DNA from: Taklimakanibacter deserti | Lineage (GTDB): Bacteria; Pseudomonadota; Alphaproteobacteria; Rhizobiales; Aestuariivirgaceae | DNA length: 64,000 nt | Direction: 5' to 3' | Assembly: GCA_003574785.1 (NCBI GenBank) | Contig: QORU01000007.1 | Coordinates: 124,001 to 188,000, forward strand | Shown here: one piece after another, positions 4,611 to 42,488 of the stretch | Layout of the letters: each line of letters begins with the position of its first letter | Position numbering within the stretch: the stretch's first letter is position 1 | The notes under the pieces: generated by a model | The model's input: the letters and a program-made list of their open reading frames with translations, nothing else | What the model was told of the DNA's origin: nothing | Database searches by the model: none | Translations under genes and position numbers: made by a program

Positions 4611-4706
4611 CTCTCTTTAATTAATCGACTATTCAGTCTATTATTATCTGCATCTTGCACGGCAAGGTCATTGCGGGGCGGCAGGTGGCGGACTAGATCA
4701 CTGCGG

Positions 4707-4783
4707 GGCCCCGTAGCTCAATTGGATAGAGCATCAGACTTCGAATCTGAGGGTTGGAGGTTCAAATCCTTCCGGGGTCACCA
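4707..4783 (+). tRNA. tRNA-Arg (anticodon TCG)
   Basis: A 77-base cloverleaf including an encoded CCA. The acceptor stem is GGCCCCG paired with CGGGGTC (one G-U), the D arm is GCTC/GAGC, and the anticodon stem is CAGA/TCTG with loop CTTCGAA, giving anticodon TCG (reads CGA). The T arm is GGAGG/CCTTC-like with TTCAAAT. tRNA-Arg genes are common phage attachment sites, but I found no second copy of its 3' end in the window. Confidence 0.95.
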
Positions 4784-5527
4784 TTATTGCAGGAAGTCTC
4801 GTCGTGAGGACCGGGCGGTGAGTAGATCGAGGCAACCTGAACGACAAATGATCCGGAGGCGGGAACTGCTCCCATGCGCAAGCCCGACCCAACCAAATGG
4901 CCGCCGGGCGTGCGCGCCATAACCGCCGATGAGCTTCATGCCATAGGTGTCGATCAAAGAGGCGATCTTCACTGACATGGCAAGCACGTCCAAATAAGGC
5001 AACCCATTGGTGCTGGATTGCCGGCACAGCCTGCTTGCCGCCGGCGCCGCACTGTCAGCGATCGCGCTTGGACTTACCGAGATCATCCGGTTCTGTTTCG
5101 AGATGGCAGCGCGCTGAAGTCTGCCCTCCTCCCAAAAGCGCGACATCGCTGTGATGATAGTGCTTCTTGAAAGCATTGCGCCCCAAGGTCGCCGATCCTG
5201 CCGGCAAAAGCGGCGGCGGCGTCATCGGCATGAGCGGTTAGTGGCTGTGAAACAACAAACGCCGACAACACGGCGAGACCCGAAGCAAGACTGGGGATGC
5301 TATAAACGCCGTTGTGACCTCCGCTCGATAAGGCATCTCGACCATTGTCGACAGGCGCCGCGGAGAATCAGCGGGGCGGTCTCCAGGCGGCTTTTGCACG
5401 ATAATCACAACCGCCGCCGTTCCCTGTTGATAACTTTCCGCTTGGATACCGGACCTCCTAAATCATTGAGTCTGCGGGTTAATTCCGGTGATTCGGGCGT
5501 CAAAGTTTCGCCACAGCCGGATGAGAA
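4784..5527. other. 744-base stretch without a confident gene
   Basis: No ORF here has the look of a conserved protein. On the minus strand, pieces in two frames (about 5083-5271 with a hydrophobic start, then about 4870-5100 in another frame) could together be a decayed gene broken by a frameshift, but I cannot name a parent. The region directly follows a tRNA gene, a place where integrases and their debris often accumulate; no recombinase motif was seen. Confidence 0.35.
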
Positions 5528-5614
5528 ATGAAGGCCGGTAATATTGATGAATATTTGAAGTTTATTAGCATTCTACGGAATGTTACTTTCATCTGGCCAC
5601 GGACGAGACGACAG

Positions 5615-6850: not shown

Positions 6851-7126
6851 ATGACGACCATGTTGTTCGACACGACGCGCGAACGCTCCAAGCTGTTTAC
6901 ACATCTTGCCATTTGCTGCCTGGTGGCAATTCTAGGGATAGGCGCCTATCTCTATTCGGCGACGCTTGGCGTTAACTATACGCGCGAGCGCGACAATATC
7001 GGCAATACCTATTGCCTGTACTGGATGCCCTTTTCCACCTTCGAGAATACCGTGGAAGACGAAGGGAATGTCTTGTCGTGCCCCTATCTCGCAAAGCCCG
7101 GACAGCGGCCTGGCGCACAGACATAG
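6851..7126 (+). CDS. Small single-TM protein (91 aa)
   Basis: A hypothetical protein with a basic N-terminus, one hydrophobic segment (about residues 19-42) and a 45-residue polar C-terminal part containing two cysteines (in the CLYW and SCPYL segments). This topology suggests an anchored periplasmic domain in which the cysteines might pair. The family is not recognised. It is followed after 91 bases by the 7218 gene on the same strand. Confidence 0.5.
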   Translation: MTTMLFDTTRERSKLFTHLAICCLVAILGIGAYLYSATLGVNYTRERDNIGNTYCLYWMPFSTFENTVEDEGNVLSCPYLAKPGQRPGAQT

Positions 7127-7217: not shown

Positions 7218-7610
7218 ATGACTGCGTTTGAACCCAATGGCATCGGCGAGAGCCAAGTCGCCACGGACGGAAAGACGATTTCCATCACCCTCGACACGGC
7301 CGATTCCGGCCTCATCACCCTCAACCTGCCCCTGTCGCTGAGCGGGCATTTGATCCGCGTCTTGACCGCGCGGACGCGCGAAGCCCATGAAAGGCTCAGG
7401 AAAGCCGGCGAAAACACCGATTTCCTGAGCGAAATCGCCGATGTGACGACGCTGAGCGTCGGCGGAACCGAGAAACATGCGCATCCGATCCTCAGCCTCG
7501 AGACCAAGGACGGGGTGGTGACCGCCTATCATGTGCCAGCCAACATCCTACAGAGGCTGGCCATCGGCCTGACGAAGCTTTTCTCCGACGTCGCTGCTCG
7601 CCGCGGATAG
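7218..7610 (+). CDS. Hypothetical protein (130 aa), parent of a downstream truncated copy
   Basis: A soluble protein of unknown function. The N-terminal half looks like a beta-rich segment with the repeated pattern ISITLDTADSGLITLNLP; a helical piece (residues 45-70) follows, then a C-terminal part beginning TTLSVGGTEKHAHPIL. That C-terminal part (7444-7610) is repeated at 7726-7892 with the same length and roughly 85-90% identity by eye, including the stop codon. The repeat shows that this locus was involved in a duplication next to the phage cluster. Function is not inferable. Confidence 0.6.
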   Translation: MTAFEPNGIGESQVATDGKTISITLDTADSGLITLNLPLSLSGHLIRVLTARTREAHERLRKAGENTDFLSEIADVTTLSVGGTEKHAHPILSLETKDGVVTAYHVPANILQRLAIGLTKLFSDVAARRG

Positions 7611-7619
7611 ACCTGGCGC

Positions 7620-7727
7620 CGCCAGCCCGGCAACACCGATGCTCCAAGACGCGCCAGATCCTCCTAACCCGTACCTTCGGCAAGCTGACGCACCGTTTCG
7701 GAGGCGAGCGAGCTGCCGAGCCACATG
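7620..7727 (-). pseudogene. Fragment of a phage virion-protein gene
   Basis: This 108-base stretch matches 9205-9311 (inside the phage gene at the left end of the cluster) at roughly 80-85% by eye, with one single-base indel. Read on the minus strand it encodes a QLAEGTG/EDLARLGASVL segment, but a TAG stop splits it. It therefore comes from a related, diverged phage and not from the copy next door. It abuts the truncated copy of the 7218 gene directly, with the join at about 7726. Confidence 0.8.
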
Positions 7728-7892
7728 ACGACGCTGAGCGTCGGCGGAACCCAGAAACACGCGCATTCGATCCTCAGTCTTGAGACCAAAGACGGCGTGG
7801 TGACCGCCTATTCCGTGCCGACCAACATCCTGCAGCGGCTGGCCAGCGGCTTGACGAAGCTGTTCTCCGACGCCGCCGCTCAGCGCGGATAA
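7726..7892 (+). pseudogene. Truncated second copy of the 7218 gene
   Basis: The segment repeats the last 55 codons and stop of the 7218 gene without indels. The 5' two thirds are missing and are replaced by the phage-gene fragment ending at 7727. An ATG at the join keeps the frame open, so a 55-residue product is conceivable, but no ribosome binding site is evident. I treat it as a remnant. Confidence 0.75.
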
Positions 7893-8102: not shown

Positions 8103-8522
8103 ATGAGTAATAGCGCTACCGCGACAAAAAAACTGCTTTATGCGCTGCCCGACCTTGGCTGGATTATGCTTTTCTGCATCCTAGCCTTTACTATGCATGA
8201 TCTAACGATCGTATGGGTGCAGGTGATCGCACTCTTGACCTTTCCCTCCATCTGGAGTCCGGTTTCGGAGTGGCTGTTCAGGCGGTCAAACGAGCATCAG
8301 CAAGCGATAGGTTGGAGAGATCCCGTATATTTGGCCATTGCCCTTGTTGCGGTTGTGCTGGCTTCACTTGCGGTTGGATGGGCCGTGGATGGGATGGCAG
8401 AACTTCTCGGCCATTGGGTGCGGATAACCTGGGTCCTTCTCGGCGCGGCACTTGCAATTGTCGCAATGACTCGTCGTGCTCGAGAGAAACACTCACAAGT
8501 TTCGGATAGCCAGGGGAAATAG
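8103..8522 (+). CDS. Hypothetical membrane protein (139 aa)
   Basis: About four hydrophobic segments (residues 12-30, 34-50, 75-97, 104-124) and a polar C-terminal tail. The family is not recognised. It sits at the left border of the phage cluster, and its 3' half is antisense to the apparent 3' extension of the phage gene at 8297-9769. Base composition is closer to an ordinary gene than the antisense frame, so I consider this one real and the antisense overlap spurious. It may be a host gene next to the insertion point or a phage-end accessory gene. Confidence 0.55.
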   Translation: MSNSATATKKLLYALPDLGWIMLFCILAFTMHDLTIVWVQVIALLTFPSIWSPVSEWLFRRSNEHQQAIGWRDPVYLAIALVAVVLASLAVGWAVDGMAELLGHWVRITWVLLGAALAIVAMTRRAREKHSQVSDSQGK

Positions 8523-9769
8523 CTGGTCTCATTGGCCGGCCCGAATCGCTCGTTCTGCAGCAGTGCACGAATGAGGGTTTGCCGGGCCTCGGCTCGATCT
8601 GCTCCAGGCTTTACACCATTGCGGATTTCTCTCTCGGCATTTCGGACATTGCGATTGGATGTTGCACGGGCCAGCAAAGCAGCAGCTGGCCCGCTCGCTC
8701 GCGAAAGTGTTGGCAATGCACCTACACCTCCTCCTATCAGTGTCCCTATTGCTCCGCCGGTGACGGCTGTCGACGCGTCACCAAGCAATAATCCCGCACT
8801 TCCACCGATCTGACCTCCTGTCTTACTGCTGTCTTTGACATTTTTAATGAACCTCTCGATCTCGTCCGGAAATGGCAAGGGCAAAGCCGATTTTCGCTCA
8901 ACCCAGCGCGAAGTCCTTTCTACGAGATCATCACCGCCCGCGCGCCGCACCGCGGCCTGCTCTGAAGGTGAAAAATGCCTTATCCCTTCAGGCGTCATCT
9001 TCCCAGACGGATCGGCCGCTTCGTCGAGGATCGCACCTTTCTTCGCCTGTGCGGCCGGCACCTGTCTTTGACGCAGTGCGTCGGCGAAGCGCTCAGGATT
9101 TCTTTCCCCCACCTTTGCTATGCGCGCTTCGGCCTCATCGAGCAGGTCATCCCAATATTTCGTCGGGTGCGGCATGCGCGGACCAGGTCGCCCAAGGCGC
9201 GGCCTGCCGCCCGTTAACACCGATGCACCAAGACGCGCCAAATCCTCGTAGCCCGTACCTTCGGCGAGTTGGCCCGCCGCTTCGGAGGCGAGTGAGCTGC
9301 CGAGCCACATGGCCCCTTTGCGCGCCAGGCCGGCGGGTCCGGTCACGAAGCTTGGCGCGAGCTCGCCCATGGTACGGGCATATTTGCCGGCGGTCGTGCG
9401 CGGCTGATGCTTGAACAGGCCTTCGGAATTCAAGCCGAACCCTCTGGTATAGCCGTTCATCGCCTGAAGCGTCTCATCCGAAGTCGGGAGATAATCGTCG
9501 ACCGCCTTCAGTTGCGTATCCAGCCAGGCGCGATGCTCCGGCGTGTCTTCAATGACCCCTGCCTTGCGTCCGACCCAGTCGCCGCCGCGGGTCGCCATGT
9601 CGATCGCCGCCATGGGAAGTCCGACCACGCCGGCAACGCCTTCGCCGACACCGGTCAATCCGCTGCGTGCGACATCTTCGAGGACATCGATCTCGCCCTT
9701 CCTGCGCATCTCGCGCTCGCGGGCTTGCGCAAATTCAAAGGCCTTTCGGCGATCGGGGGTTACGAGCAT
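8297..9769 (-). CDS. Phage internal virion/ejection-like protein, 3' end probably altered
   Basis: The last late gene of the phage cluster. From the ATG at 9769 it would be 490 residues (an ATG at 9802 adds 11). It has a charged N-terminus, Gly/Ala-rich amphipathic segments (about 30-60), and a glycine-zipper-like hydrophobic stretch (about 330-365) of the kind seen in podoviral ejection proteins that enter membranes. No enzyme motif is seen. Sequence up to about the RALLQNERFG segment (base 8535) looks phage-like. The remaining 75-80 residues, antisense to the membrane-protein gene, are low-complexity Ser/Arg/Ala and are probably read-through into foreign DNA, meaning the gene was cut at the cluster border. 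Confidence 0.6.
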   Translation of the reverse strand: MLVTPDRRKAFEFAQAREREMRRKGEIDVLEDVARSGLTGVGEGVAGVVGLPMAAIDMATRGGDWVGRKAGVIEDTPEHRAWLDTQLKAVDDYLPTSDETLQAMNGYTRGFGLNSEGLFKHQPRTTAGKYARTMGELAPSFVTGPAGLARKGAMWLGSSLASEAAGQLAEGTGYEDLARLGASVLTGGRPRLGRPGPRMPHPTKYWDDLLDEAEARIAKVGERNPERFADALRQRQVPAAQAKKGAILDEAADPSGKMTPEGIRHFSPSEQAAVRRAGGDDLVERTSRWVERKSALPLPFPDEIERFIKNVKDSSKTGGQIGGSAGLLLGDASTAVTGGAIGTLIGGGVGALPTLSRASGPAAALLARATSNRNVRNAEREIRNGVKPGADRAEARQTLIRALLQNERFGPANETSYFPWLSETCECFSRARRVIATIASAAPRRTQVIRTQWPRSSAIPSTAHPTASEASTTATRAMAKYTGSLQPIAC

Positions 9770-9856
9770 TATGATGATCCTTTCGTCGATGATGCCGGTC
9801 ATTCAGGGAGGAGAGGTGCCTATAAAGCGAGACCGCCTCTCCAGTTTGCCTGCTCC

Positions 9857-10102
9857 CTATTGGTGGATGCGGCGGACACTCGCGCGCCAAAGGATGTCGG
9901 CGATCTTCCTTTCGGCGGCGGCGATAGACTTCTCTTCCATGCCGGGGAAGGCCACATGCAAGGCCTCGTGAACGAGCGTCGACAGCCATTCCCGGGGTTT
10001 CTGGCGCTGCTCTATTTCGATGATGCCCTCGTCCAGGAAGACACGGCCGACGGCGCGCTGACGCTTCAGCTTGCGCTCCACGATCCTGACCTTGCGAGGC
10101 AT
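9857..10102 (-). CDS. Small phage zincin-like protein (81 aa)
   Basis: The ATG at 10102 follows directly after the stop of the o-spanin gene. The protein is helical with the motif LVHEALH at about residues 43-49, fitting the HExxH zinc-metalloprotease core, and a conserved-looking acidic/aromatic segment FPGMEEKSI after it. A longer ORF upstream is only the antisense-like frame of Rz1. Proteins of this type occur in phage late regions; the activity is unproven. It closes the lysis cassette. Confidence 0.6.
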   Translation of the reverse strand: MPRKVRIVERKLKRQRAVGRVFLDEGIIEIEQRQKPREWLSTLVHEALHVAFPGMEEKSIAAAERKIADILWRASVRRIHQ

Positions 10103-10103
10103 G

Positions 10104-10385
10104 TCATTTCCCGGCGGCCGTCTGGCGCAGGCGCAGATACCACGCCTTGCTCTTGCGCAAGCGCGAGTTGGCTTGCTTGAGGGCCATGCGGTCGCGCGCC
10201 AACGCGTCGCGCGCATCCTGCTCGGCCCTGAGCTTCTGCACCGGCACGGGCGCCATGAAGGACGGCGGCTTGGGCAGTCTCGTGCCCGAGGCGTCGATGA
10301 CGGGAACCGACCTATTGCAGGCGCTCAGCATCAGGACCAAGCAGGCACTTGTCAGGACGTTTCGCGAGTTCTTCAAGGTAAGCAT
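10104..10385 (-). CDS. Rz1-like outer-membrane spanin lipoprotein
   Basis: 93 residues. The signal peptide ends in the lipobox LMLSAC, so the mature protein would be a lipoprotein starting at Cys23. It is followed by a short Pro-rich stretch (PKPPSF, PVPV) and a basic helix, the layout of o-spanins. It starts inside the i-spanin gene in another frame (74-base overlap), the classical Rz/Rz1 arrangement. Together they would span the periplasm and fuse inner and outer membranes in the last step of lysis. Confidence 0.8.
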   Translation of the reverse strand: MLTLKNSRNVLTSACLVLMLSACNRSVPVIDASGTRLPKPPSFMAPVPVQKLRAEQDARDALARDRMALKQANSRLRKSKAWYLRLRQTAAGK

Positions 10386-10650: not shown

Positions 10651-11324
10651 CCGAACAAGCGGTCCCACAGCCGCTCTCTGCGGTCCTCGCCGATCGCCCA
10701 GAGCGTCGCCACACCCGCAATGCCGATGAGGGCGCCGATGACGAGAAGACCGCGCCAATCGAGAAACGAGGACAGGCCAAGCCCCAAGCTCGATGCAAAG
10801 CTGTCGGCCGCACCGGCGAGTGCTGTGCCGCCGATCGTGCCGTAGGCGCCGGCAACGGCCCATTTGGCGGGCGTCGTCCCGCCTCGCGAAAGGAACAGCC
10901 GCTTCTCGGCTGCCCTCCGCCGCGTGAGACCGGGAAGAACCCTGCCGCCGGCCTTGTTCCAGGCGAGGAACGCCTCGGCCGCCCTCATTTCCTCGCCGAT
11001 ATTGAAGGCACGGGCGACGCTCGATCGCGTGAAATTGCCGGGCCCGATGTTGAAGCAGAGGCTCACCATCGCGTCGAACTGATTTTGCCTCGGCGGGCGT
11101 GTGACCACCTTGTCGACGACGCGCTCATATTCGATCAGATCCTGGGCGAGTATCGCTTCAGCCTCGAGCCTCGTGATGCGCATGCCGGCCGCAGGTCTCG
11201 GCGAGCCTGCCTGCGCCGTGTGGCCGTAACCAATGGTCCAGATGCCGAGGGAATCCTGGTAGGCTTCGAGGCGCAGACCCTCATATTGCTTGATCAGGGC
11301 GAGGCCCCGTGATCCGGTCTTCAT
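10647..11324 (-). CDS. GH24 endolysin (lysozyme) with C-terminal membrane segment
   Basis: 225 residues from the ATG at 11324. The catalytic triad of phage T4-type lysozymes is present with exact spacing: E15, D24 and T30, followed by the TIGYGHT signature. It would cleave the peptidoglycan glycan strand. Unusually, a Gly/Ala-rich linker leads to a second hydrophobic stretch near residues 190-212 and a short basic tail, so the enzyme may be anchored in the inner membrane by its C-terminus. There is no N-terminal signal or signal-arrest segment. It overlaps the protease gene upstream (ATGA) and the Rz gene downstream. Confidence 0.88.
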   Translation of the reverse strand: MKTGSRGLALIKQYEGLRLEAYQDSLGIWTIGYGHTAQAGSPRPAAGMRITRLEAEAILAQDLIEYERVVDKVVTRPPRQNQFDAMVSLCFNIGPGNFTRSSVARAFNIGEEMRAAEAFLAWNKAGGRVLPGLTRRRAAEKRLFLSRGGTTPAKWAVAGAYGTIGGTALAGAADSFASSLGLGLSSFLDWRGLLVIGALIGIAGVATLWAIGEDRRERLWDRLFG

Positions 11325-12247
11325 TGGGCCATCCTGTCCATGATGCGCTGGAAGATGCGCGGCCATGTCTCGAGGTCCATGGTCATGACGTGACCGGGAC
11401 CGCTGCTCATTCTCTCATCAATCTTCGTCGCACCGTCCTTGGCGATGCCCGGACCGTTTGCGTCCTTGAAGCCCTTGTCCTTCAAGAGTTTCTTGGTTGC
11501 CGCGATCGGAACGACAAAGTTGATCCCGGCACCACGAAGGCCGGCGTCAAGCGTGCCGACAATCTGCCCCTGCTCGTTGAGGACCGAGCCGCCGGAATTG
11601 CCGCCGATAGCCACGGCATCGATCTGAAAGACCTTGATCTTCTTGCCGCGGCCGAAGTCGAGCGTGCGTTCGGTGGCGGAGACGATACCTTTGGTGAGCG
11701 AATTGTCGAACTCGACGCCGGGATTGCCCACGACATAGATGGTCTCACCGCGCTTGAGCCTGTAGTCATCGGGCGCAAGCGTGGCGGCATAGCTTAGGAC
11801 ATATTCCGGGTCGACGATCTGGAGAATAGCGACGTCGTTCTCGGGGTCTCGCGCCCATATCTTCGCCGTCAGGCTTTGCCGGGAGACGATCTCGTAGTTC
11901 TTGACGATGTTCTTGGAGACGACCAGATCCAGGCGGCGCTCGACGGTGGCGGTCGTGACCACGCCGGTGATCGGATCGACGAACTCCTTTTGCTCGCGGC
12001 GAATCCGGTTCCTGACGCAATGGTCCGCCGTCAGGATGAATCGGTTCAGGATTGAGATCACCGTGCCGGAGCAGAAATCCCCATCCTCATCACCAACGAG
12101 GACGTTAGCTTTGTCTATATAGTCGTTGATGGCGTCAATGCTCCATTGCGGGGCGGCCTCTGCTGCCGAGCAGGACTCGATATCGATGAGCACGGCCATG
12201 ATGCCGAATGCGCAAAGGGCCGCGATCAGCCACTTCTGGACTGTCAT
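11321..12247 (-). CDS. Secreted trypsin/HtrA-like serine protease
   Basis: 308 residues. A signal peptide (about 1-28, ending near CSAAEA) is followed by a chymotrypsin-fold domain with the triad H76 (TADHC), D138 (NDVAIL) and S218 (GGNSGGSV). No PDZ domain follows, only about 60 residues of linker and tail. The family includes periplasmic stress proteases and secreted trypsins. Here it sits between holin and endolysin with a four-base overlap to the latter, so it is part of the lysis operon. A role in cleaving envelope proteins during release, or in activating the endolysin, is inference. Confidence 0.8.
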   Translation of the reverse strand: MTVQKWLIAALCAFGIMAVLIDIESCSAAEAAPQWSIDAINDYIDKANVLVGDEDGDFCSGTVISILNRFILTADHCVRNRIRREQKEFVDPITGVVTTATVERRLDLVVSKNIVKNYEIVSRQSLTAKIWARDPENDVAILQIVDPEYVLSYAATLAPDDYRLKRGETIYVVGNPGVEFDNSLTKGIVSATERTLDFGRGKKIKVFQIDAVAIGGNSGGSVLNEQGQIVGTLDAGLRGAGINFVVPIAATKKLLKDKGFKDANGPGIAKDGATKIDERMSSGPGHVMTMDLETWPRIFQRIMDRMAQ

Positions 12248-12277
12248 GTGAATGTTCCTTTTGGGAGAGATTGGAGA

Positions 12278-12454
12278 CTAGTGCTTCGGCTTCCGCCAAT
12301 CCCGCAGAAGCTTGATGATCTGGAGGACGGCAAGCAAAAGACCGAAAATCGGGAGCAACAGCGCGGCAGCAGCGGACACGTCAAACAACATCCTGATCCA
12401 CCAGGGAGAGACGATTGCCGCGCCGGCAATGGCGAAGTTCGCGAGAGCGGTCAT
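12278..12454 (-). CDS. Putative holin (58 aa)
   Basis: A short gene with ATG at 12454 and TAG at 12278. The product has a hydrophobic segment near residues 4-18, a second and longer one at about 26-46, and a basic C-terminal tail (KLLRDWRKPKH). Two membrane segments and a charged tail directly before protease, endolysin and spanins are what a small phage holin looks like. It would form the membrane lesion that triggers lysis. The family was not identified by sequence. Confidence 0.6.
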   Translation of the reverse strand: MTALANFAIAGAAIVSPWWIRMLFDVSAAAALLLPIFGLLLAVLQIIKLLRDWRKPKH

Positions 12455-12457
12455 TGC

Positions 12458-12778
12458 TTATCCCACCGTGAGACCGACCATGGTATTGCTGTCGTTTTCT
12501 CCCCAACTCGCCTGAATTGATACTCCATTGCCGCTCTGTTTGGGGACGTAGGCTGCGGATGTCGGCTCGTAAAACAGGTCACCATCATCCTCATCTTCGA
12601 AGTATTGTTCGAAAAATTCGGTAGCGCCTGTCCATGAGCAGTTGGGGATCACATTTATCGAGGAGCTGCGCCGGGAAAGGAAGATCCCATAACCATTGGC
12701 TGGAAAATCCATGGAGAGTTGGAGCGGCTCGGCCTCTTCCGTGCTTGCAGTGTCATGGGCGGTTCCTCCGCCCTGCAA
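12458..12778 (-). CDS. 3' part of a frameshifted phage structural gene
   Basis: 106 residues, acidic and beta-rich, ending just four bases before the putative holin. It aligns by pattern with the C-terminal half of the phage protein at 30794-31477: a P-x-G-[FY]-G segment, then an SWTGATE-like strand, then a final NDSNTM strand against NDGGMI. The N-terminal half is encoded in another frame by the preceding gene (12753-13148). Joined by a +1 shift near 12780, the two would make one protein of about 229 residues, the same size as the paralogue. So this is either a broken gene or a programmed-frameshift product. Confidence 0.6.
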   Translation of the reverse strand: MQGGGTAHDTASTEEAEPLQLSMDFPANGYGIFLSRRSSSINVIPNCSWTGATEFFEQYFEDEDDGDLFYEPTSAAYVPKQSGNGVSIQASWGENDSNTMVGLTVG

Positions 12779-13148
12779 ATTGTCGAGTGCTATGCACCAT
12801 TACACTACGCACTGCATGGCTGAAGGTAGCGACGACAACGGCGGCGCTGCCTGTAGGGACAGTGGCGGACGCGATCGCAAGAATGATATCGTCGCCATTA
12901 TTGTGCTGCACCTCGATGGTGGCCGAAATCCCGCCGATCGTCACGGAATTAAGGGCGGCGGGACCAGGCGATACGAGTCCCAGTTCAGCGGAGATGAGCG
13001 CATAGACCTTTCTTGTCGCCGAGGCGGTACCGATCGGCCTTGCATCGCTGGTGACCAGCACATTGCTTGTTGTGCGCGTATACCAGCTTGTGTTGCGCTC
13101 CAGCTCGGCGACGCCAGCGCCGGCGAAGAAACCCGGAGCCGTCATCAT
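12753..13148 (-). CDS. 5' part of a frameshifted phage structural gene
   Basis: 131 residues from the ATG at 13148, overlapping the tail-fibre stop. After a short lead it carries the beta pattern VYALISAE, LNSVTIGGIS, IILAIASATVPTG and VVVATFS. The same pattern, in the same order, occurs in the phage protein at 30794-31477 (VIYAYVFN, LPNSVMIGGV, IALSLYAALVPAG, VIVATTYP). The reading frame then leaves the homology and stops, while the homology continues in the frame of 12458-12778. A virion surface or baseplate-type function is inferred from position. Confidence 0.6.
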   Translation of the reverse strand: MMTAPGFFAGAGVAELERNTSWYTRTTSNVLVTSDARPIGTASATRKVYALISAELGLVSPGPAALNSVTIGGISATIEVQHNNGDDIILAIASATVPTGSAAVVVATFSHAVRSVMVHSTRQFAGRRNRP

Positions 13149-14011
13149 GGCACGATGTCTCCGATGAGCAGCCATTCATCGGTCGCGATCTTGATCAGCG
13201 ATCCGGCCGAATACTGCGTGCGCGCCTTGTAATTGTTGGCGGGGCGAAGCGTGACGCCGGCGCCCTGCGTGAAGGTGATCCGGCCTATGCCCTTCTGCCA
13301 CCAGTCGATCTTCGACTTCACCGGGAAGGCGACCGACGAATTGGGCGGCACGGTCCAGGTGATGGCGGAGGCATTGCTGCCCGAGACCAGGCGACCCTTG
13401 TCGGTGAGCGCGAATGTATAGGTCGTGCCGGTCTGGTCATTGACGGCCGAATACTCGCCTAGTGGTTCAAATGATGTTCCACCGACATTAGGGTTCAGCA
13501 GGATCACATCGGTGCCGTTGTAGACGCAATCGCAGATGTGGCCCGCGCCCGTGATGTCGCCGATCGCCAAGGCAACGCCGTTCAGCTTCTTGATCGTCTT
13601 CGCGCCCAGGCCGTCGACACTGATGGTCGGATTGACGGACGTATTCATCGCACCAGCGGTGAAGCGGAAGCGCATCTTGGCGGTGTAGGCCGTGAAGGTC
13701 GGCGCGAAGATGGCGGTGATGGCATCGGCGGAGCCGCCGACCGAGGCAGCATGCGCAACGATGTCAGATTGCACCTGCCCCAGATTGGCGCTGTCGGTCG
13801 CCGCCGTTCCCGCGCCCTGATTGGTGAACTTGAAGCCGCCCATGGGCTGATTGGCCTGCCAGGGCGCCGTGCCGTTCACATTGATGCTGTTGGTCATCGC
13901 CTCGGCATTGTCGGCGACATAGGCGTTGTATTTGGCGCTTTCGATGGGCGTGTTGGGCGTGGCCGTTGTGCCGGCCGGCGGGCCGTACACGCCCGATCCG
14001 TTGCGGGGCAT
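13145..14011 (-). CDS. Phage tail fibre protein
   Basis: 288 residues. The start MPRNGSGVYGPPAGTTATPN and the following SAKYNAYVADNAEAMTNSIN segment are typical of short tail-fibre proteins of alphaproteobacterial prophages. The rest is Gly/Ala/Thr-rich beta structure (about 50-280) with few charged residues, as in trimeric fibres. It probably binds the host surface. The downstream gene starts within its stop codon. Upstream lies the low-GC insertion at 14.3-16.4 kb. Confidence 0.75.
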   Translation of the reverse strand: MPRNGSGVYGPPAGTTATPNTPIESAKYNAYVADNAEAMTNSINVNGTAPWQANQPMGGFKFTNQGAGTAATDSANLGQVQSDIVAHAASVGGSADAITAIFAPTFTAYTAKMRFRFTAGAMNTSVNPTISVDGLGAKTIKKLNGVALAIGDITGAGHICDCVYNGTDVILLNPNVGGTSFEPLGEYSAVNDQTGTTYTFALTDKGRLVSGSNASAITWTVPPNSSVAFPVKSKIDWWQKGIGRITFTQGAGVTLRPANNYKARTQYSAGSLIKIATDEWLLIGDIVP

Positions 14012-14624
14012 GGATTACCTCATAGGAAATGATAGGGGCACTCAAAGAACGTTTGAGCGGCGGGACGACTCGGCCTAATCTTTGGGCATCCTCGCACCGA
14101 GGTCTCTGCGACCGGGCTATGATACGCCTGCCTCTCAAAGAGACACCCTTGGTGCCTGCACAAGGTAGCGGGAGCGCAATCGAATACCTCGTGGCCCTCA
14201 GACGGTCGCGCCGTTCCTTAAGCCGATCAGGCAGGGCTCCGAGGACCCGCCCAAGGCAGTTCGCGACTGTCGAGGGCGGGCCGATGCTGCCACGAACGGC
14301 GGTTACCCGTTCGGTGGCCATGACCAACAGCAACCTTACGGTTCTGTGGGCTCACGGACCAGAAAGGTTCAGGGCAATGCGCCCGACCAAGCTGGTTGTT
14401 ATCGAGGTCCGCCTCAATGTCGCCCTCTGTCTCTTCGGGATAGCGGCGATTATTACGGCAATCCTCGCTTAGCAGGGAGGCTGCTCGGCCAACGCTGGGT
14501 GGCCTTTCCCTTTCTGTTGGCCGTCTTCTTTGGCTCTGTGTCGGAATTTCAGCGTGCGGCTTGTGCGGTGTATGAGCATGCCACTTTAAATTCGTCGCGT
14601 CTTTCATCTTCGGGAGTCTTTGCC
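14012..14624. other. 613-base non-coding or poorly coding region at the edge of the moron island
   Basis: No convincing gene on either strand. A possible tiny membrane peptide lies at 14377-14472 on the plus strand (31 residues, one hydrophobic segment), too weak to call. The stretch lies between the minus-strand tail-fibre gene and the plus-strand HEPN-like gene, so it should contain promoters for the latter and the transition from phage to inserted DNA. Confidence 0.4.
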
Positions 14625-15134
14625 ATGACTCACGTCCCGACTTTCAATTCCCAGCAGGAATCGGAACGGATCTATATCGTTTGCGGTCGGATCGCCATCT
14701 ATTGGGGGCCTGTTGAGCTAAGCGTTGAAGGCGTCCTTACCAAGCTTCGGAATAATCTTCGATATGGGCAAACCCCTGGCAGCTTCCTATGGTCAATACC
14801 CTTCCCGAAACAGTTTGGGAGGAAGGTCGAGGAAATCAAGCTTCACCTGAAATCATCACCCAAATACGCCAACGTAAGAAGTGAGGCCGCCCCCCTACTC
14901 ATTCGTTGCTACAATGCCTTTCAGGTTCGAAACCATGTGGTTCACAGCGTCTGCCAAGGGACGGACTCAAAGGGAAGGGTGATTTTCGGAACCTCGGATC
15001 ACAAGAAGGGCAAATCGTATGTTGAGGTACGGCTCAGTCCCAAACAACTCGAAAACGCCGCTGTGGCCATGCTGCGCCTGGTTGATGAGTTGAAGAAGCT
15101 ACACGATCAATTGCACAATCCGGCCTTGCGGTAA
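14625..15134 (+). CDS. HEPN-like candidate RNase (169 aa), phage-borne accessory gene
   Basis: Start at ATG 14625. An alpha-helical, soluble protein with no signal peptide. It carries FQVRNHVVHS, giving R102-N103 and H107: the R-x4-H motif, with a polar residue after Arg, that marks HEPN-domain ribonucleases found in toxins and abortive-infection systems. Helices before (about 10-45 and 85-100) and after (about 135-165) fit a HEPN bundle. It reads against the phage late genes and has visibly lower GC than its surroundings. The neighbour at 15272 is convergent. RNase activity is inference from the short motif; another helical family remains possible. Confidence 0.55.
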   Translation: MTHVPTFNSQQESERIYIVCGRIAIYWGPVELSVEGVLTKLRNNLRYGQTPGSFLWSIPFPKQFGRKVEEIKLHLKSSPKYANVRSEAAPLLIRCYNAFQVRNHVVHSVCQGTDSKGRVIFGTSDHKKGKSYVEVRLSPKQLENAAVAMLRLVDELKKLHDQLHNPALR

Positions 15135-15271
15135 ATTTCACAATCTTCCGGGATTAAGAACAATGCTCGAAAGTCTTAGGAAGCAGTCTCACTTGATGCT
15201 GGAAGTCTTCTTATGGCCTTAGGTTCCTGGTGAGCATTGCGCTAAGTAGCGTTGAACCCATCTAGCAAAAA

Positions 15272-16387
15272 TCACACTCGCTTCTTTGGATAGAATAACG
15301 CTGGCTCCGCTCCAAGCTTTTCACAGTACTCCATCGCCGTATCACGGGCGACGATCCAATACGGATTTGCAGCGACCGGGACATTGTTGGTTTTTGCTAT
15401 GGCGTCTTTGATAACTTCGCCCAAATTTTCTCTGACTACTTTCAATCCACCGGACTCAATATCGCGGCTTAGCGCCTCGAAGCGGTCGCGAGCTTTTTGC
15501 GAAGGCAAAGGCAGACTTGGTAAATAGCATTCCCACAAGCATGCAATCTCGTAGAGTTTGAACCTGTCGAGCGCGTCCCATTTGTCCCAGTCGATCGGGT
15601 TAGAAACTTGGCGGACCGTCACATGCGGCGGTTTGATTTCTTGCTTTCGTATTACATCCAGATATTCCCTAACAATCGGGTCTATGTCAGCGTGTGTAAA
15701 GGACCGTCGGTACTTTTTGTCGTGGTACTCAAAGAAGAAAGTAAACGGAACAAACTTCGAAAGAAACTTGTCTACCGGCATGGGCTTTCGGTCAGGCGAA
15801 AAAAAGGCGTGAGTGGCTATACTCGCGCCAACCGGTATCGGATTTATCTCATCACCGGAATAGAAGGAATCGCCAATCTTGAAGTAGAGTGGATATATAT
15901 CGTTGGTGGTGTCCGACCTGACATAACCGTGGGCGTTTGTGATTGGGTCGCCCGTTAGGTTTTTTCCGTACGCATAGAAATCATGGACAACAATTGCCCC
16001 TTGTGGCGCACTCATACCGATGAAAGGGTAGTTCTTGTGTAGGTCAAAATTCCATTCAAGGTCAGTCTTGGGTCGTTTCTCGACCGCGTTCCCCTCTATC
16101 GTTTTGGTCGTGTCCGGTAATAGCGCAACGGGTTGCTGAGGCGACGGCAATGACGAGGTGTTATGGATAGCACGCGCGATTATGAAACCTCCAAGCAGTG
16201 CGCTCGCGAGAGAGCCCAATCCGCTACTCAGGAAATTGGAAACCTGTGGCCAATGAGCGAGCATAAATTCCATGTCACCCGCCTTGCCTATTAGCCATAG
16301 CGTCGGCTTCCACAGAACAATGGCCGTGCCCAGAATTCCCAGTGGCGTTTGTATCGCCGCCAATAGACGACGGATGGCCGCAAACAT
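15272..16387 (-). CDS. Membrane-anchored hypothetical protein (371 aa), phage-borne accessory gene
   Basis: Two membrane segments at about residues 12-35 and 53-74, then a roughly 295-residue soluble domain of mixed beta (about 110-245) and alpha (about 260-365) structure. The segment KLYEIACLWECYLPSLPLPS near residue 280 resembles a short helical module seen in many uncharacterised bacterial proteins, but I cannot name it. GC content looks near 50%, lower than the phage genes on both sides. Its 3' end faces that of the HEPN-like gene. Position and composition fit a prophage accessory gene such as superinfection exclusion; that role is inference. Confidence 0.55.
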   Translation of the reverse strand: MFAAIRRLLAAIQTPLGILGTAIVLWKPTLWLIGKAGDMEFMLAHWPQVSNFLSSGLGSLASALLGGFIIARAIHNTSSLPSPQQPVALLPDTTKTIEGNAVEKRPKTDLEWNFDLHKNYPFIGMSAPQGAIVVHDFYAYGKNLTGDPITNAHGYVRSDTTNDIYPLYFKIGDSFYSGDEINPIPVGASIATHAFFSPDRKPMPVDKFLSKFVPFTFFFEYHDKKYRRSFTHADIDPIVREYLDVIRKQEIKPPHVTVRQVSNPIDWDKWDALDRFKLYEIACLWECYLPSLPLPSQKARDRFEALSRDIESGGLKVVRENLGEVIKDAIAKTNNVPVAANPYWIVARDTAMEYCEKLGAEPALFYPKKRV

Positions 16388-16427
16388 GCCGGACTCATAT
16401 CATACCCTCTCTCCCTACCCCAAGGGC

Positions 16428-16790
16428 TTACGTCCGGTTCAGCTGTTGCTTATAGAGAGCTTTGGCAATGGAACGCTGGCCCGGGTTGACCCAGGGATTT
16501 GCGAGGACACTCGCGACGGTGCCGGCGTCCGGTGCCTGCTTCTTTCGCAGGGCTTCGATGAGCGGCGCGAAACTGGTTTCCGCTCTCGCCTTCCCGTCTA
16601 TTCCAGCCTGGTCAAGCTGGCCCTGCGCGACCCGGCTGCTGATGGCGCCGACGAGCTTATTGGCTCCGTCCCACATGTTGCGAGTGGGCTGGTTAAGCTG
16701 GCGCGCGACCAGCGCCCGTATCAGCGCGCGGCGATCGGCCAGTTCATCCGGTGAATTGATGGCGTCATTGCCAAACAGGTTGAATGCCAT
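16428..16790 (-). CDS. Phage hypothetical protein (120 aa)
   Basis: A helical, soluble protein beginning MAFNLFGNDAINSPDELADR. It lies directly downstream of the S74-type fibre gene (adjacent, no gap) and is part of the same minus-strand operon. Rich in Ala, Arg and Gln with no motif I know. Similar small proteins accompany tail or internal proteins in podoviruses; the function is unknown. Confidence 0.65.
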   Translation of the reverse strand: MAFNLFGNDAINSPDELADRRALIRALVARQLNQPTRNMWDGANKLVGAISSRVAQGQLDQAGIDGKARAETSFAPLIEALRKKQAPDAGTVASVLANPWVNPGQRSIAKALYKQQLNRT

Positions 16791-17789
16791 TTATGCAGTC
16801 CTCACACGTTCGCCAAGGCGAAGCGCCTTGCGATAGTCGACCATCTTGAAGCCGCCCGGGCCTTTGACGACCGCTTCCGGCTTCGCCTTCTCGACCTCCT
16901 GGGCGATGAGACCGAGGCGCAGCGGACCGCCGCCCTTGTAGCGATAGCTGTAGATGCCGAGATCATCGGAAGTCTCGCCAACCTTGTGGATGTCTTCCTT
17001 CAGCCGCTTGTCGGAATAGGCTATCGCCGTCCCCGCGAGGCTGAGCAGGCTGCCGAGCCTGGCATCGTTTTGAGCCTGCTCTTGCTGATGTGCCGCAAAC
17101 TGGTTCTGATAAGCATTGTCAACCATTTGAGCCAAAGGCACGCCATCGACGCCGGCCTGTGGCGTGTTGCTGACGAAACTGGGCTGGCTGACCTGGGAAC
17201 CCGAGAGCAGCGCCGTGGTATAGTTGAGATCCCGGGCGTGATCCCGATCTGCTTCCGCATAGGCTTCGGCGCGGCTGGTCAAGGCGTGCTGATTGTAGGC
17301 GTCGTTTTCGTTCTCCCCCACTTGGCGCATGAGCCGATCATAGGCATCAGACCCCAGGCGAAGACCGCGATTGGCGGCATCGGTTTCAGCCTGGCGACGC
17401 GCTTCCGCGAGACGCGGCGCAAGGCGCTTGTTGCCGAGATCGAAGAGCCGCGCCTCCACCTCCTCATCGACCTTGAAGGGCTCCTTGTTGATCCTTCCCG
17501 ACAAGTAGCTGGCAGCATTGGCGAGATTGTATTTGGCGGCATCGGCCTCGTTCTTGATCCGCTTCTGGGCGTCAGACAGGGTCGTGGTCGCGGTGTAGAT
17601 CGGGATATCCCGCCCACCCACTTTCTGCTTTCCCGTTTCAGTGTAGATAATCGCCCCATCATCCGTGACCTGGTTGGTGCGGTTGATGGCGTTTTGAGCC
17701 AAGGCTGTGTCGATGTTCATCTGTGCTTGAAGCCTCGCCGTCGCCTTCGGATCAGGCGGTTTCGGGGCCTTGCTGCTCTTGCTACCCAT
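16791..17789 (-). CDS. Phage tail/internal protein with S74-like intramolecular chaperone domain
   Basis: 332 residues from the ATG at 17789, which is preferred because it overlaps the GNAT stop and yields MGSKSSKAPKPPDP, a usual start of this family. The body (30-260) is Gln/Ala/Asn-rich helix with coiled-coil character. The C-terminus carries YSDKRLKEDI and GLIAQEVEKAKPEAV, the hallmark of Peptidase_S74/endosialidase-type chaperones that assist trimer folding and cut themselves off. It is probably a tail spike, needle or fibre subunit. Confidence 0.75.
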   Translation of the reverse strand: MGSKSSKAPKPPDPKATARLQAQMNIDTALAQNAINRTNQVTDDGAIIYTETGKQKVGGRDIPIYTATTTLSDAQKRIKNEADAAKYNLANAASYLSGRINKEPFKVDEEVEARLFDLGNKRLAPRLAEARRQAETDAANRGLRLGSDAYDRLMRQVGENENDAYNQHALTSRAEAYAEADRDHARDLNYTTALLSGSQVSQPSFVSNTPQAGVDGVPLAQMVDNAYQNQFAAHQQEQAQNDARLGSLLSLAGTAIAYSDKRLKEDIHKVGETSDDLGIYSYRYKGGGPLRLGLIAQEVEKAKPEAVVKGPGGFKMVDYRKALRLGERVRTA

Positions 17790-18225
17790 GAATGTGTTCC
17801 TTATGAAAACCATTCGCACGCCACGCTTCCGCGGTGAGCGCCGAAATGATGCCGTCCATGCCGCGGCCAAAGAGCCGCGGTACCGTTACTTGCTCGAAAC
17901 CATAGGCCCTAATGATGCGCACCGCGTTTTTCAGCCCGGCCGGTGTGCGGGCCACGGCGAGCTGGCAGCCGAGTTGATCGAAGACATAGGAGAAAGCCGC
18001 ATAGAGAACCGGCCGCGTCAACCACCTCCGGTTATTTCCAGCAAAGCTGATCTCGATCACGCCGGCCTTTGGATTGTAGTTGTGGAACACGAACCCGCCG
18101 ACGAGACGAGCGCCGTCCGTCACGCCAATGGCCGTGCAGCCGCCAAAATCCTCGCGATCGCAATCTTCGATGAGAGCTGAAACGAGCATCGCCACAGCTT
18201 CATCATTGCCGTAAACCGGCCTCAT
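17782..18225 (-). CDS. Phage GNAT-family acetyltransferase
   Basis: 147 residues. The second half shows the acetyl-CoA-binding layout of GNAT enzymes: beta strand IEISFAG, then RWLTRPVLYAAFSYVFDQLG with helix alpha-3, a strand CQLAVARTP, and the late helix KNAVRIIRAYGF that in GNATs follows the cofactor site. GNAT genes between tail genes are a recurrent feature of rhizobial and other alphaproteobacterial podovirus-like prophages. The target (virion protein or host factor) is unknown. It overlaps both neighbours by a few bases. Confidence 0.75.
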   Translation of the reverse strand: MRPVYGNDEAVAMLVSALIEDCDREDFGGCTAIGVTDGARLVGGFVFHNYNPKAGVIEISFAGNNRRWLTRPVLYAAFSYVFDQLGCQLAVARTPAGLKNAVRIIRAYGFEQVTVPRLFGRGMDGIISALTAEAWRANGFHKEHIHG

Positions 18226-19799
18226 ACCGCGATGCCGCCCTGCTCATAGAGAAGATCGAAGGAGACGAGCTCCGCCTCCGGCGGCGCCACATGGGAATTG
18301 GTGAGCTGAACGTTCGGCGCCACCGAAAATCCCTGGCCCGTAACGCTGACCCAGCGCGTCACAGTCTGTTGCGTCGTCGAGGAGTCCCACAGAGCGACGT
18401 CCCAGAGACCCGCGTCCCAGACATCGAGGCTCGGATGCGATGCCGCCGCGGGATATGGCGGCAGCTTCGGCAAATAGTTGAAGGAGCACGAGACCCGCGG
18501 GTTAATCGGTTTCCGATAGAGCCAGGTGGTGCGCGCCATTCTGGTGGTCTTTGCCGAGGCCGGCGACCCAAGGTGATCGTAGCGGCCCACGAATGTCGAG
18601 AGGTATGTCTGCCCGTCATCCGTGCCGCCGGCCTCGCCAATGTAGACCCCGCCGCCCGGCGTGCCGAAATAGATCAGGCTTCCCGCCTCGACCGAGCAAG
18701 AGAGGTCCCAGTTCGTATATTTCGCCCAGGCTCCGGTAAGGAGATTGACGACATAGCAACAGACTTCGGATGCGCCCACGCTCGGCAGGCCGATGATGGC
18801 CATGCTGCGCGCCACCCATTTGACGCAAGACCAGGCGCGCGACGACTGCCGCGCGAGCGCCTGCGCGCGCCATTCGTCTTCAATGGTCCGCGTGATCGAG
18901 GCCAGCGTCAACGCCGCCGGATCCTTCTCTTTTGCCGCGGACAGCGGGACGAGCCCGTCCAGAGTGGCAATGATCACATCGCCGCCGGCGCGAAAATATG
19001 CATTGGGGCCGAGCGGCTGGCCGATGTCATAGGTGCCGACCAGTCCCCAGGCCGTCGGAAGAGCGGGATCGGTGCCGGCAAAAGCCGCCATCTCCCCGGT
19101 CGTGGTCACGAAGACGCAGACATCATCCATGCCGTCGCCGGCATCGACCGACCACGTCGTGCCGAACAGCAGCGAACCACCTTTCTTGAAGACGCCGGAG
19201 AGGGAGATCTGCGTTGCCGCGCCGCCAATGCTGTCGACGGGCAGGCACCAGGCAACGAGCGTGTCCTTCTGGATGAAGAACAGCCGGTTCTTGAACACCC
19301 AGACATAGGAAAAGGTCGATGACGTAGCACCCGTGATGCTGGGACTGGTGCTCCATGTCGAACCATTATAGACGCGCCGGTCGTTGGCGCCGTTGACGGC
19401 GATCAGGAAATCACCGCCCGATGTCGAGAACATTGTCGATGAAAAGAACCCGCTTGTCAGGCCTGTGACATCGGCCGCTGGCTGCACCGTCGGGCTTGCC
19501 GGGCTCGTGATGTTGTAGATGCTGTCCGCATCGCTCGCGAATATCCGCTCAGCCGTGCCGCTGCGCCAAGCCATGAGGCTGATAACGCCATCCGTGATGG
19601 TCGCATGGCGGAGCCTGCCTCCGCGTGGTCTTATTCCGCGTGTCGTCGGGAAGAAGTTCTCGAGGATCGAAGCGGCGCCCGGCTGGTCGATTGCCAGGCT
19701 CTCCGACGTGACCCAGCCGCGGACGGGTGCGGGGAATGTCTTGGGGATAGAATGCGCACGAGCCTGCGCCGCAACGGCTTTTCGACGGAGATTGGGCAT
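18222..19799 (-). CDS. Phage tail/DNA-stabilisation-like protein (525 aa)
   Basis: A large beta-rich protein with repeated short strands and GDFLIAVNG-, DGMDDVCVFVT- and VGRYDHLG-type turns, suggesting a beta-propeller body. The start (LRRKAVAAQARAHSIP) and the FPAPVRGWVTSESLA segment are familiar from prophage tail-hub or head-closure proteins. Its position after the connector-like gene corresponds to P22 gene 10 (packaged-DNA stabilisation), but the sequence does not prove homology. Start and stop overlap neighbouring genes by one to four bases. Confidence 0.65.
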   Translation of the reverse strand: MPNLRRKAVAAQARAHSIPKTFPAPVRGWVTSESLAIDQPGAASILENFFPTTRGIRPRGGRLRHATITDGVISLMAWRSGTAERIFASDADSIYNITSPASPTVQPAADVTGLTSGFFSSTMFSTSGGDFLIAVNGANDRRVYNGSTWSTSPSITGATSSTFSYVWVFKNRLFFIQKDTLVAWCLPVDSIGGAATQISLSGVFKKGGSLLFGTTWSVDAGDGMDDVCVFVTTTGEMAAFAGTDPALPTAWGLVGTYDIGQPLGPNAYFRAGGDVIIATLDGLVPLSAAKEKDPAALTLASITRTIEDEWRAQALARQSSRAWSCVKWVARSMAIIGLPSVGASEVCCYVVNLLTGAWAKYTNWDLSCSVEAGSLIYFGTPGGGVYIGEAGGTDDGQTYLSTFVGRYDHLGSPASAKTTRMARTTWLYRKPINPRVSCSFNYLPKLPPYPAAASHPSLDVWDAGLWDVALWDSSTTQQTVTRWVSVTGQGFSVAPNVQLTNSHVAPPEAELVSFDLLYEQGGIAV

Positions 19800-20494
19800 C
19801 AGGGAACGATGGCCTCCGGAAGAGCGATCTGGGCATCGGATGGCAGGCGGTCGCGGCCGATGGTGAGAATGCGCGAGCCCTTGTCGGCGGTGATCAGCTT
19901 CTCTTTAGCGTCCTCGTAGTTCCCGAAATCCTCGCCATAGGCGAGGCCCTTATTGGCCCGCCATTTCCAGATCATGCACAATTCGAGCAGCTTCTCGGAG
20001 AGCCGGAACGTGTCATTGTCGGCCGAGAAAGCGGCCTTTGGGGTCGCGTTGCTGTCCAGAGCCCATTTCGAGCTCATGTAGAAATACTTGACCTCTTCAC
20101 CATTGGCGGGCGCCGGCTTGATGTGGATCTGGTCGCCATGGATCGTCCAGGCGCCGGCCACCAGATTGAACTGGCGAATGCTCATGTCGAGCCACTGGTC
20201 GCTCGAGGTGACATGCCTCAGCGCGGCAACATGCCGGCTCGTGCGCAGCTCCGCCTTCTTAAGCATTCGGTCATAGTCGGCCGGAAAGTTGAAATCCTCG
20301 GTCGTGCCGTCGCCGTTGATGGTGGCTACGCCCTTGAGCTTCTGCCATTCATAGTCCTTGGCGATGTGATCGGCCGCCATGTTCGCTAGAACCTGCAATT
20401 CAAAATGCTCACGCTCCTGGCTGGCGAAAATCGCATCCGGCCGGTTCAGCGGGAGGGTGCCGCAGGCGCTTTGGATGACGGTGAGAACGGTCAT
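19799..20494 (-). CDS. Phage head-tail connector/tail accessory factor-like protein
   Basis: 231 residues, mainly helical. The N-terminal half has a CGTLPLNRPDAIFASQEREH segment and helix ADHIAKDYEWQKLKG. The middle contains a compact beta part (DFNFPADYDRM, WTIHGDQIHIKP, EVKYFYMS), and the C-terminal helices are SEKLLELCMIWKWRANKGL. This succession matches gp4-like adaptor proteins that dock under the portal of P22-like podoviruses, and the gene position agrees. Stops at the start of the next gene. Confidence 0.65.
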   Translation of the reverse strand: MTVLTVIQSACGTLPLNRPDAIFASQEREHFELQVLANMAADHIAKDYEWQKLKGVATINGDGTTEDFNFPADYDRMLKKAELRTSRHVAALRHVTSSDQWLDMSIRQFNLVAGAWTIHGDQIHIKPAPANGEEVKYFYMSSKWALDSNATPKAAFSADNDTFRLSEKLLELCMIWKWRANKGLAYGEDFGNYEDAKEKLITADKGSRILTIGRDRLPSDAQIALPEAIVP

Positions 20495-20572
20495 GGGCAG
20501 TGTTCACCAATTGAGTGGGCTTGTTGGCATGGGGAAAAATCGCACCGGGGCAGGATGCCAAAGGCTTGGCAA

Positions 20573-21316
20573 TTAGCCGTTCGGGTACCAACGATCGCGC
20601 TTGCGGTGCTTCTGGTGGTGCTGAGGCTTGGGGTGTCGCTGTTGAGGCTGGGGGCTCTCTTGTTGATGTGTAGGCTGGCGGCTCTCATGATGTGGCGGCT
20701 GCTCGTTTTCGTGCCCCTCAGGTGGCTGGGCCGGTTCGTCTTGGACCGCTGGCTTTTCTCGGATGATCGCGTCCTGCTCGCGCTGCCGCTCTTTTGCTTC
20801 GAGCGCCTCCAGGCGCTCGCTCAACTCGGCATTCCGCGCAGCAAGCGCGGTCGCATGGGCAGAATCCTTGGCCGTTGCGATATAGGCGGCGGCCTTCTCC
20901 TTAAGCTCACGGCCAAACATGCCGAGGCGGGACAGGTTGATACCTTCGAGGCCGGCCAGCGCTTCGGCCGTGTGGACGTGGAGCGCCTTCAGTTCGGCAC
21001 GGCGGGCGGAATCGATGAAGGGCAATTCATCGATCGGCGTGCCCTCCCCTACGGCGGCTTCGCCGGATTTGAAGGCTTCATAGTGGCGGTGATAGACCTG
21101 GGCGTAGCTCACCCAAAGGTTCGATTGAGGGTCGCGCATGCATTTCTCATGCGCTGGCGCGACCAGTTCCTTTTTCGTGTCGCCGGCGAAGCGGATGAAG
21201 ACCTGCTCCTGCTGGTCATAGATCGGCCGGCCCTCTTTAAGACTCTTGGCCTTGTTTTCGACGGCGACATTGCGGAATTCGATGTGCAAATGGCGTGTGC
21301 TCGAGGGATCGAACAT
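20573..21316 (-). CDS. Phage hypothetical protein with coiled coil and His/Gln/Pro-rich tail
   Basis: 247 residues. The first 100 residues are globular (QEQVFIRFAGDTKKELVAPA with an adjoining WVSYAQVYHRHYEAF segment). Residues about 110-185 form a Leu/Ala/Glu coiled coil, and the last 55 residues are low-complexity His, Gln, Pro and Glu. The His-rich tail may be disordered or metal-binding. It lies between the decoration-like protein and the connector, where podoviruses often carry small assembly proteins. Function unknown. Confidence 0.65.
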   Translation of the reverse strand: MFDPSSTRHLHIEFRNVAVENKAKSLKEGRPIYDQQEQVFIRFAGDTKKELVAPAHEKCMRDPQSNLWVSYAQVYHRHYEAFKSGEAAVGEGTPIDELPFIDSARRAELKALHVHTAEALAGLEGINLSRLGMFGRELKEKAAAYIATAKDSAHATALAARNAELSERLEALEAKERQREQDAIIREKPAVQDEPAQPPEGHENEQPPHHESRQPTHQQESPQPQQRHPKPQHHQKHRKRDRWYPNG

Positions 21317-21334
21317 GGATGTCCTTCCGGTAAA

Positions 21335-27595: not shown

Positions 27596-27627
27596 TGTAC
27601 TGAACCATCTTCTTGACTTCGCAAAAC

Positions 27628-38788: not shown

Positions 38789-38798
38789 CTCACCTCCG

Positions 38799-42476: not shown

Positions 42477-42488
42477 GCCTCACCTCAG

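Follow-up and report, generated by a model that had tools for sequence, protein, structure and literature searches.

A possible HEPN-like ribonuclease in the variable interval between ejection and tail-fibre genes of a probable prophage remnant of Taklimakanibacter deserti

Tha, an anti-phage HEPN ribonuclease (RNase) of Staphylococcus aureus prophages, carries the motif RNSIMH and is activated by tail proteins (PMC11087260), and AbiF of Clostridioides difficile prophages is encoded by a HEPN gene and depends for its toxicity on the motif R and H (PMC12373285). The motif of HEPN RNases is located at the end of helix 3 or the start of the loop to helix 4 (PMC3710099), the residue after the motif R is polar, mostly N, D or H, and many HEPN families have an upstream acidic residue, typically within Ex3[KR]. 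P22 SieA, a superinfection exclusion protein, has 162-164 amino acids (aa) and three predicted transmembrane (TM) helices (PMC10883804). We have analyzed a stretch of 64,000 nucleotides of the T. deserti contig QORU01000007.1 (positions 124,001 to 188,000, hereafter the window), which contains late genes of a podovirus prophage in P22-type order and, among them, an island of low guanine plus cytosine (GC) content with two genes, P0001 and P0002. An earlier note had drawn attention to a HEPN-like motif in P0001, and had suggested that the two genes form a defence or exclusion module. Its observations are partly confirmed, and its interpretation is supported in part. Our preferred reading, which we hold tentatively and at slightly less than an even chance, is that the prophage carries P0001 as a single defence or addiction gene encoding a HEPN-like RNase, comparable to Tha and AbiF, and that P0002 is separate from it. 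The two genes and the candidate motif are located as follows.

14625..15134, plus strand: P0001, a 169-aa orphan protein, putatively HEPN-like, inverted with respect to the late operon, with 8 relatives and a model with a predicted local distance difference test score (pLDDT) of 85.
14928..14945, plus strand: candidate HEPN R-x4-H motif of P0001, codons R102-N103-H104-V105-V106-H107, with R102 and H107 invariant in 9/9 sequences, at the C-terminal end of the predicted helix 79-107.
15272..16387, minus strand: P0002, a 371-aa, probably membrane-anchored protein on the same strand as the late genes.

The coordinates and strands that had been assigned to the two open reading frames (ORFs) are correct, and the claimed drop in GC content is real. 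The island (14625-16387) has 50.1% GC, compared to 60.3% for the phage region 8297-36239. A lower value is reached in 3 of 1245 equal-size windows sliding across the 64 kb (step 50), and the eight lowest-GC windows of this size all overlap the island. Searches of Pfam, PHROGs, PADLOC and NCBIfam gave no significant match for P0001 or P0002 (best listed E 0.048), and neither of the two matches a virion family, in line with the absence of virion character noted before.

Database searches identified eight relatives of P0001, of 167-183 aa and with 36-59% identity. In the alignment of the nine sequences, 27 residues are invariant, including R102, H107, W27, E31 and E35, and H107 is the sole invariant histidine of the family. 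As judged from this alignment, the R-x4-6-H feature of HEPN RNases is conserved throughout. Taken by itself, an R-x4-H motif is weak evidence, because 40% of P0001 shuffles contain one (5.2% for R[NDH]x3H). Its invariance in 9/9 sequences is less expected, since random placement of 27 invariant residues produces an invariant R-x4-H in 2.4% of trials. The emphasis that had been placed on N103 is not upheld, because among the nine sequences N follows the motif R in P0001 alone; the other residues at this position are T (5), V (2) and G (1). H104 is a histidine in 8/9 members. The invariant E31 and E35 are located in the first helix, and E70, present in 8/9 members, is followed by the invariant K72, which gives ExK and not Ex3K.

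Relatives of P0001 were found in 1/385 alphaproteobacterial genomes, an Erythrobacter metagenome-assembled genome (MAG), and in none of the other 384. A relaxed search of 240 genomes gave weak matches in 10 (best E 0.006); the 5 of these that were inspected are considered chance similarities. Scans of viral contigs for both the P0001 and P0002 families had no result, nor had protein and DNA searches of phage and plasmid records, or a sequence search of solved structures. No description of the P0001 family was found in the HEPN, prophage and exclusion literature, which was queried by terms other than sequence identifiers.

The predicted P0001 model is mainly helical, as had been anticipated, with helices 10-46, 54-57 (short), 64-77, 79-107 and 139-162, four of which are long. 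The third long helix ends with H107, which places the motif of the model at the end of helix 3, as in HEPN RNases. When the model was compared with known structures, HepT toxins accounted for 6 of the best 15 rows, with Z-scores of 6.2-6.5. For profile comparisons, HepT sequences were collected by a PF01934 search of 142 genomes (45 matches, 30 with loci, 25 taken after leaving out 5 short, weak or broken loci). The hhalign tests used 24 of these, all trimmed around the motif (five via a G-start variant), after L090, which lacks the motif, had been dropped. The reference set for DUF4145, a family that we take to be HEPN-like, comprised 11 of 15 loci, and that for AbiU2 comprised 5 proteins. 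The P0001 family aligned with the trimmed HepT set with a score of 19.58, and R102-H107 was placed on the HepT motif. This score was reached by 0/299 column shuffles but by 12/200 block shuffles. All 25 untrimmed HepT sequences gave the same alignment of the motif and a score of 22.71; the shuffle controls cover the trimmed version alone. The HepT, AbiU2 and DUF4145 sets scored just 11.73-17.88 against each other, so mutual detection failed as well, and the test has little power to exclude membership.

Several of these results count against an RNase. The Z-scores are modest, unrelated helical bundles rank as high as HepT, and Foldseek gave no significant match for the P0001 model. The position after the motif R is loose, with N, D or H in 1/9 members. 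Trimming of the HepT set around the motif favours alignment of the motif, and the profile similarity appears to be that of the motif alone, because block shuffles reach the score, the reversed profile still scores 14.87 and the profile with masked motif 14.69. It also appears confined to HepT, as the scores against AbiU2 (13.08) and DUF4145 (15.12) come from alignments that do not place motif on motif. P0001 could thus be a helical bundle without RNase activity, either a HEPN look-alike or an inactive HEPN domain with, for example, a binding or regulatory role, in which R102 and H107 are structural. The invariance of both residues, their location at the expected helix end, and the status of H107 as the only invariant histidine argue against this explanation, which we consider unlikely, though a serious contender. 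The four long helices, the motif that closes the third of them, and the presence of HepT entries among the better structural matches lend weak support to the HEPN assignment. We regard a HEPN fold of P0001 as likely, but not proven, and the HEPN idea as a whole as plausible and moderately supported.

Among described proteins, P0001 resembles Tha in being a single HEPN-like protein encoded in a prophage with an R-N-x3-H motif (RNSIMH in Tha, RNHVVH in P0001), and both match the HepT structure 5yep, P0001 much more weakly. In contrast to P0001, Tha-1 has 301 aa and a separate N-terminal region, is transcribed from the cI promoter, and has an antisense partner, ith. P0001 has 169 aa and no further domain, lies in the interval between ejection and fibre genes, and is without a recognised partner. 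AbiF/AbiD-F are likewise prophage HEPN genes among late genes, there in the lysis module (PMC12373285). Unlike AbiF, P0001 is not accompanied by an abiF RNA motif or any other Rfam match, and it has no Pfam Abi-family match. The HepT proteins (PF01934) are the best named structural neighbours, and hhalign aligns their motifs with that of P0001. The HepT motif is RX4HXY, with a Y two residues after the H, whereas P0001 has V109 at this place. PF01934 is absent from the Pfam results of P0001 (E up to 1) and of 4 family members (E up to 5), and a Pfam search for an MNT antitoxin beside P0001 found no nucleotidyltransferase in P0002, the fibre gene, 14029-14472 or 16428-16790.

The genomic position of P0001 is the most telling of the results, and the borders of the site are as follows.

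13145..14011, minus strand: fibre-like gene, left border of the cargo site, with a 97% identical protein in the viral locus L004.
16428..16790, minus strand: short gene of 120 aa, right border of the island, matching the N-terminus of the gene in ejection-protein-1 position (L006, 35%) and a short L004 gene (61%).

The island had been described as lying between tail-fibre and fibre-type genes, which holds for the left neighbour, but not for the right one, which is not fibre-type. A scan of viral contigs with gene 18222 gave 59 loci (L004 and others named below), none of which contains P0001 or P0002; a scan of viral contigs with gene 16428 gave no useful result. L004 matches the window at 94% over 11076-14037, 92% over 16805-20496 and 72% over 16432-16835, and leaves the island unmatched. 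In its place, L004 has a 649-aa gene in ejection-protein position, two inverted genes for paralogous 3-TM proteins (137 and 134 aa), and the fibre gene. The label ejection protein is here based on synteny with phiGT1 and P22, without family match. An S74-protein match together with a downstream fibre start is present in 16/59 loci (scored on ORFs of at least 60 aa, not on gene predictions). Inverted cargo directly before the fibre is clear in three of the 16 (L004, L005 and L011), inverted ORFs before the fibre are all short (60-100 aa) in four (L006, L009, L017 and L021), and there are none in nine. The L011 site (18056-21325) holds seven small inverted ORFs, including an addiction pair of a PF21716 antidote (E 2.6e-28) and a Gp49-like protein (E 1.6e-5), and the L005 site holds relatives of the window's own genes 7218-7610 and 6851-7126. 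Among the four annotated phages examined, phiGT1 and RHph_N2 have small inverted coding sequences at the site and ppBjS10J-1 has none; the annotators of phiGT1 describe small inverted frames at the same position in related phages. In P22 (NC_002371), the inverted sieA and immI genes occupy the equivalent site, between the last ejection-protein gene and the tailspike.

The interval between ejection gene and tail fibre is thus variable in related podoviruses, and some of them carry inverted cargo there. The suggestion that prophages use such places for accessory or exclusion genes is well supported by L004, L005, L011 and P22. P0001, which by synteny has the SieA-type position, fits the pattern of inverted cargo; P0002 does not, because it is on the late strand. 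As P0001 is positioned like SieA in P22 (PMC10883804), the location suggests a role in exclusion or addiction, although P0001 has no TM segment and is a different gene. A similarity between P0001 residues 131-166 (15015-15122) and SieA residues 63-92 (28%, E 0.005 against that one sequence) involves helical segments and is probably due to chance. A possible 50-aa ORF (14320-14472) with one C-terminal TM-like segment is located upstream of P0001 on the same strand; it has no convincing relatives among the fetched viral loci. Promoter and terminator scans gave results near chance. Another variable spot of L004 (13687-14814) is bordered by its S74 gene and its 16428-type gene and contains three inverted, small low-GC ORFs, at least two of them alike by eye, and with signal-like N-termini.

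For P0002, the earlier prediction of two N-terminal TM helices and a large soluble domain agrees with the hydropathy profile and with the following segments.

16178..16366, minus strand: P0002 residues 8-70, two predicted TM helices, from hydropathy; the model has helices 15-35 and 58-78 at low pLDDT.
15638..16075, minus strand: P0002 residues 105-250, a conserved, predicted immunoglobulin (Ig)-like beta-sandwich, with block pLDDT of ~78-93 over 121-240 and lower values at both edges.

The hydrophobic segments (residues 8-26 and 52-70) have moderate Kyte-Doolittle means of 1.78 and 1.71, and 4/5 scanned relatives also have two N-terminal hydrophobic segments. Besides its own record, P0002 has five relatives (P0006-P0010), with 30-45% identity over the alignment. 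The six members have in common a stretch of invariant columns between residues 112 and 247, and their N- and C-terminal parts differ. With a pLDDT of 64, the P0002 model as a whole is poor, yet a beta-sandwich is confidently predicted for most of residues 121-240. Its structural matches are diverse Ig-like domains, from Kir-channel cytoplasmic domains, archaellum FlaG/FlaF and transglutaminase; the relative P0008 has a precomputed PF01336 domain. Positive charges precede the first and follow the second hydrophobic segment, and on this ground the Ig-like domain is predicted to be cytoplasmic. A search of 385 alphaproteobacterial genomes, run without positive control, found no P0002 relatives, and there were none in 2 further genomes.

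As a TM protein near the site of P22 sieA and of the L004 3-TM proteins, P0002 might be the only functional gene of the island, with P0001 incidental; it would then act in exclusion as SieA does and stop the entry of DNA at the inner membrane. P0002 shows no similarity to SieA, for which the best E is 1.4 over 8 residues, or to the cargo proteins of the site, for which it is 1.8. The protein is large and mostly soluble with two TM segments instead of about three, and it is on the late-gene strand, whereas sieA is inverted. We therefore find this explanation improbable.

The idea of a joint module fares no better. P0001 and P0002 are adjacent and both low in GC, and an immune system of phage-inducible islands bears the name HEPN-TM (PMC12948488). 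However, the two genes are convergent, with 137 bp between their stops, a layout that disfavours a single unit. The sole independent P0001 relative with readable context, in the Erythrobacter MAG, lies between glnK/amtB-like genes and a group of pheT-like, prfC-like and EEP-family genes (names by eye). No P0002 relative was found in this 20-kb locus or genome-wide (genome search without positive control; n=1), so that co-occurrence of the pair is unsupported in the one genome where it could be assessed. Beyond the window's own contig, none is evidently common to the match lists of P0001 and P0002, which is a weak argument. PADLOC gave no significant match in 9 P0001-family and 6 P0002-family members; the lone weak match is MTase_II (E 0.039) in 1/9 P0001-family members. 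HEPN-TM (PMC12948488, PMC11087260), compared by name alone, combines HEPN and TM, but P0001 and P0002 are convergent and were found together nowhere else. A single two-gene defence module of a soluble HEPN effector and a membrane partner is thus not supported, and we consider it highly improbable.

Returning to the preferred reading, P0001 would be optional cargo, inserted in inverted orientation into the variable ejection/tail-fibre site of a P22-type podovirus prophage remnant and expressed from the prophage independently of the late operon. The protein would fold as a HEPN domain and form a homodimer that cleaves RNA independently of metal ions, with R102 and H107 as active-site residues. 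Once triggered, it might cut host or phage RNA, and thereby either halt a competing phage infection or penalize loss of the prophage. P0002 would be a separate acquisition, with two TM helices and an Ig-like domain that is predicted to be cytoplasmic; its gene runs in the direction of the late genes and stands at the place where close relatives keep ejection protein 2.

The ejection region itself appears to be rearranged, as indicated by one further gene.

8297..9802, minus strand: displaced gene, 51.6% to the L008 protein directly before the L008 fibre gene, read as an ejection protein by synteny.

At E 1e-3, nothing in the window matches the proteins that L004 (649 aa) and L006 (568 aa) have in ejection-protein-2 position, and the L008 protein directly before the fibre matches window positions 8549-9772, at the far end of the late operon, followed by the inverted ORFs 8103-8522, 7218-7610 and 6851-7126. 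Because of this arrangement, an ejection gene may have moved together with its inverted cargo in this prophage, and the low-GC island may fill the place. The 8297-9802 gene extends beyond the end of its L008 relative and overlaps the inverted 139-aa TM ORF 8103-8522. Two repeats (each 87%) link 7444-7609 with 7726-7891, and 7625-7727 with 9209-9311, the latter a fragment of the 8297-9802 gene. The prophage is probably a remnant, since a non-exhaustive scan of the right side revealed no integrase, repressor or replication gene. A tRNA-Arg (4707-4783) lies near its left end, and the stretch 4600-5600 has no exact repeat of at least 16 bases elsewhere in the window. The late operon also contains a trypsin-like protease gene (11321-12247; Trypsin_2, E 1.5e-20; L004 95%, L008 53%) that adjoins the lysozyme, a small gene (9857-10216) with a HEALH zinc-peptidase-like motif by eye, a 62% relative in L008 and neither Pfam nor PHROG match, and a glycosyltransferase-like gene (26489-27748; phrog_2170, E 3.1e-12) between its capsid and portal parts. 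A repeat of ~296 bp, 92% identical (38598-38882 and 42277-42572), lies outside recognisable phage genes. A match in BFVD, A0A4Y5TZQ9 (probability 0.99, TM-score 0.47/0.50, E 0.028), has no name.

A bolder proposal, which we deem doubtful and somewhat speculative, is that P0001 founds an undescribed and very rare family of HEPN-derived RNases, in which the active site is a relaxed R-x-H-x2-H and a beta insertion separates the last two helices. Its members would be stand-alone defence effectors, here in the equivalent of the P22 sieA site, where alphaproteobacterial podoviruses would repeatedly carry inverted genes of exclusion, addiction and defence. The locus is also a reminder that adjacency and common low GC do not of themselves make a two-gene system. 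If the preferred reading is correct, it would add a minimal HEPN effector family that was missed by the defence library used here, and it would mark the ejection/fibre interval as a place worth searching for genes of exclusion, addiction and defence in podoviruses other than P22. With L004 and L011 available for comparison, the cargo site makes the idea directly testable.
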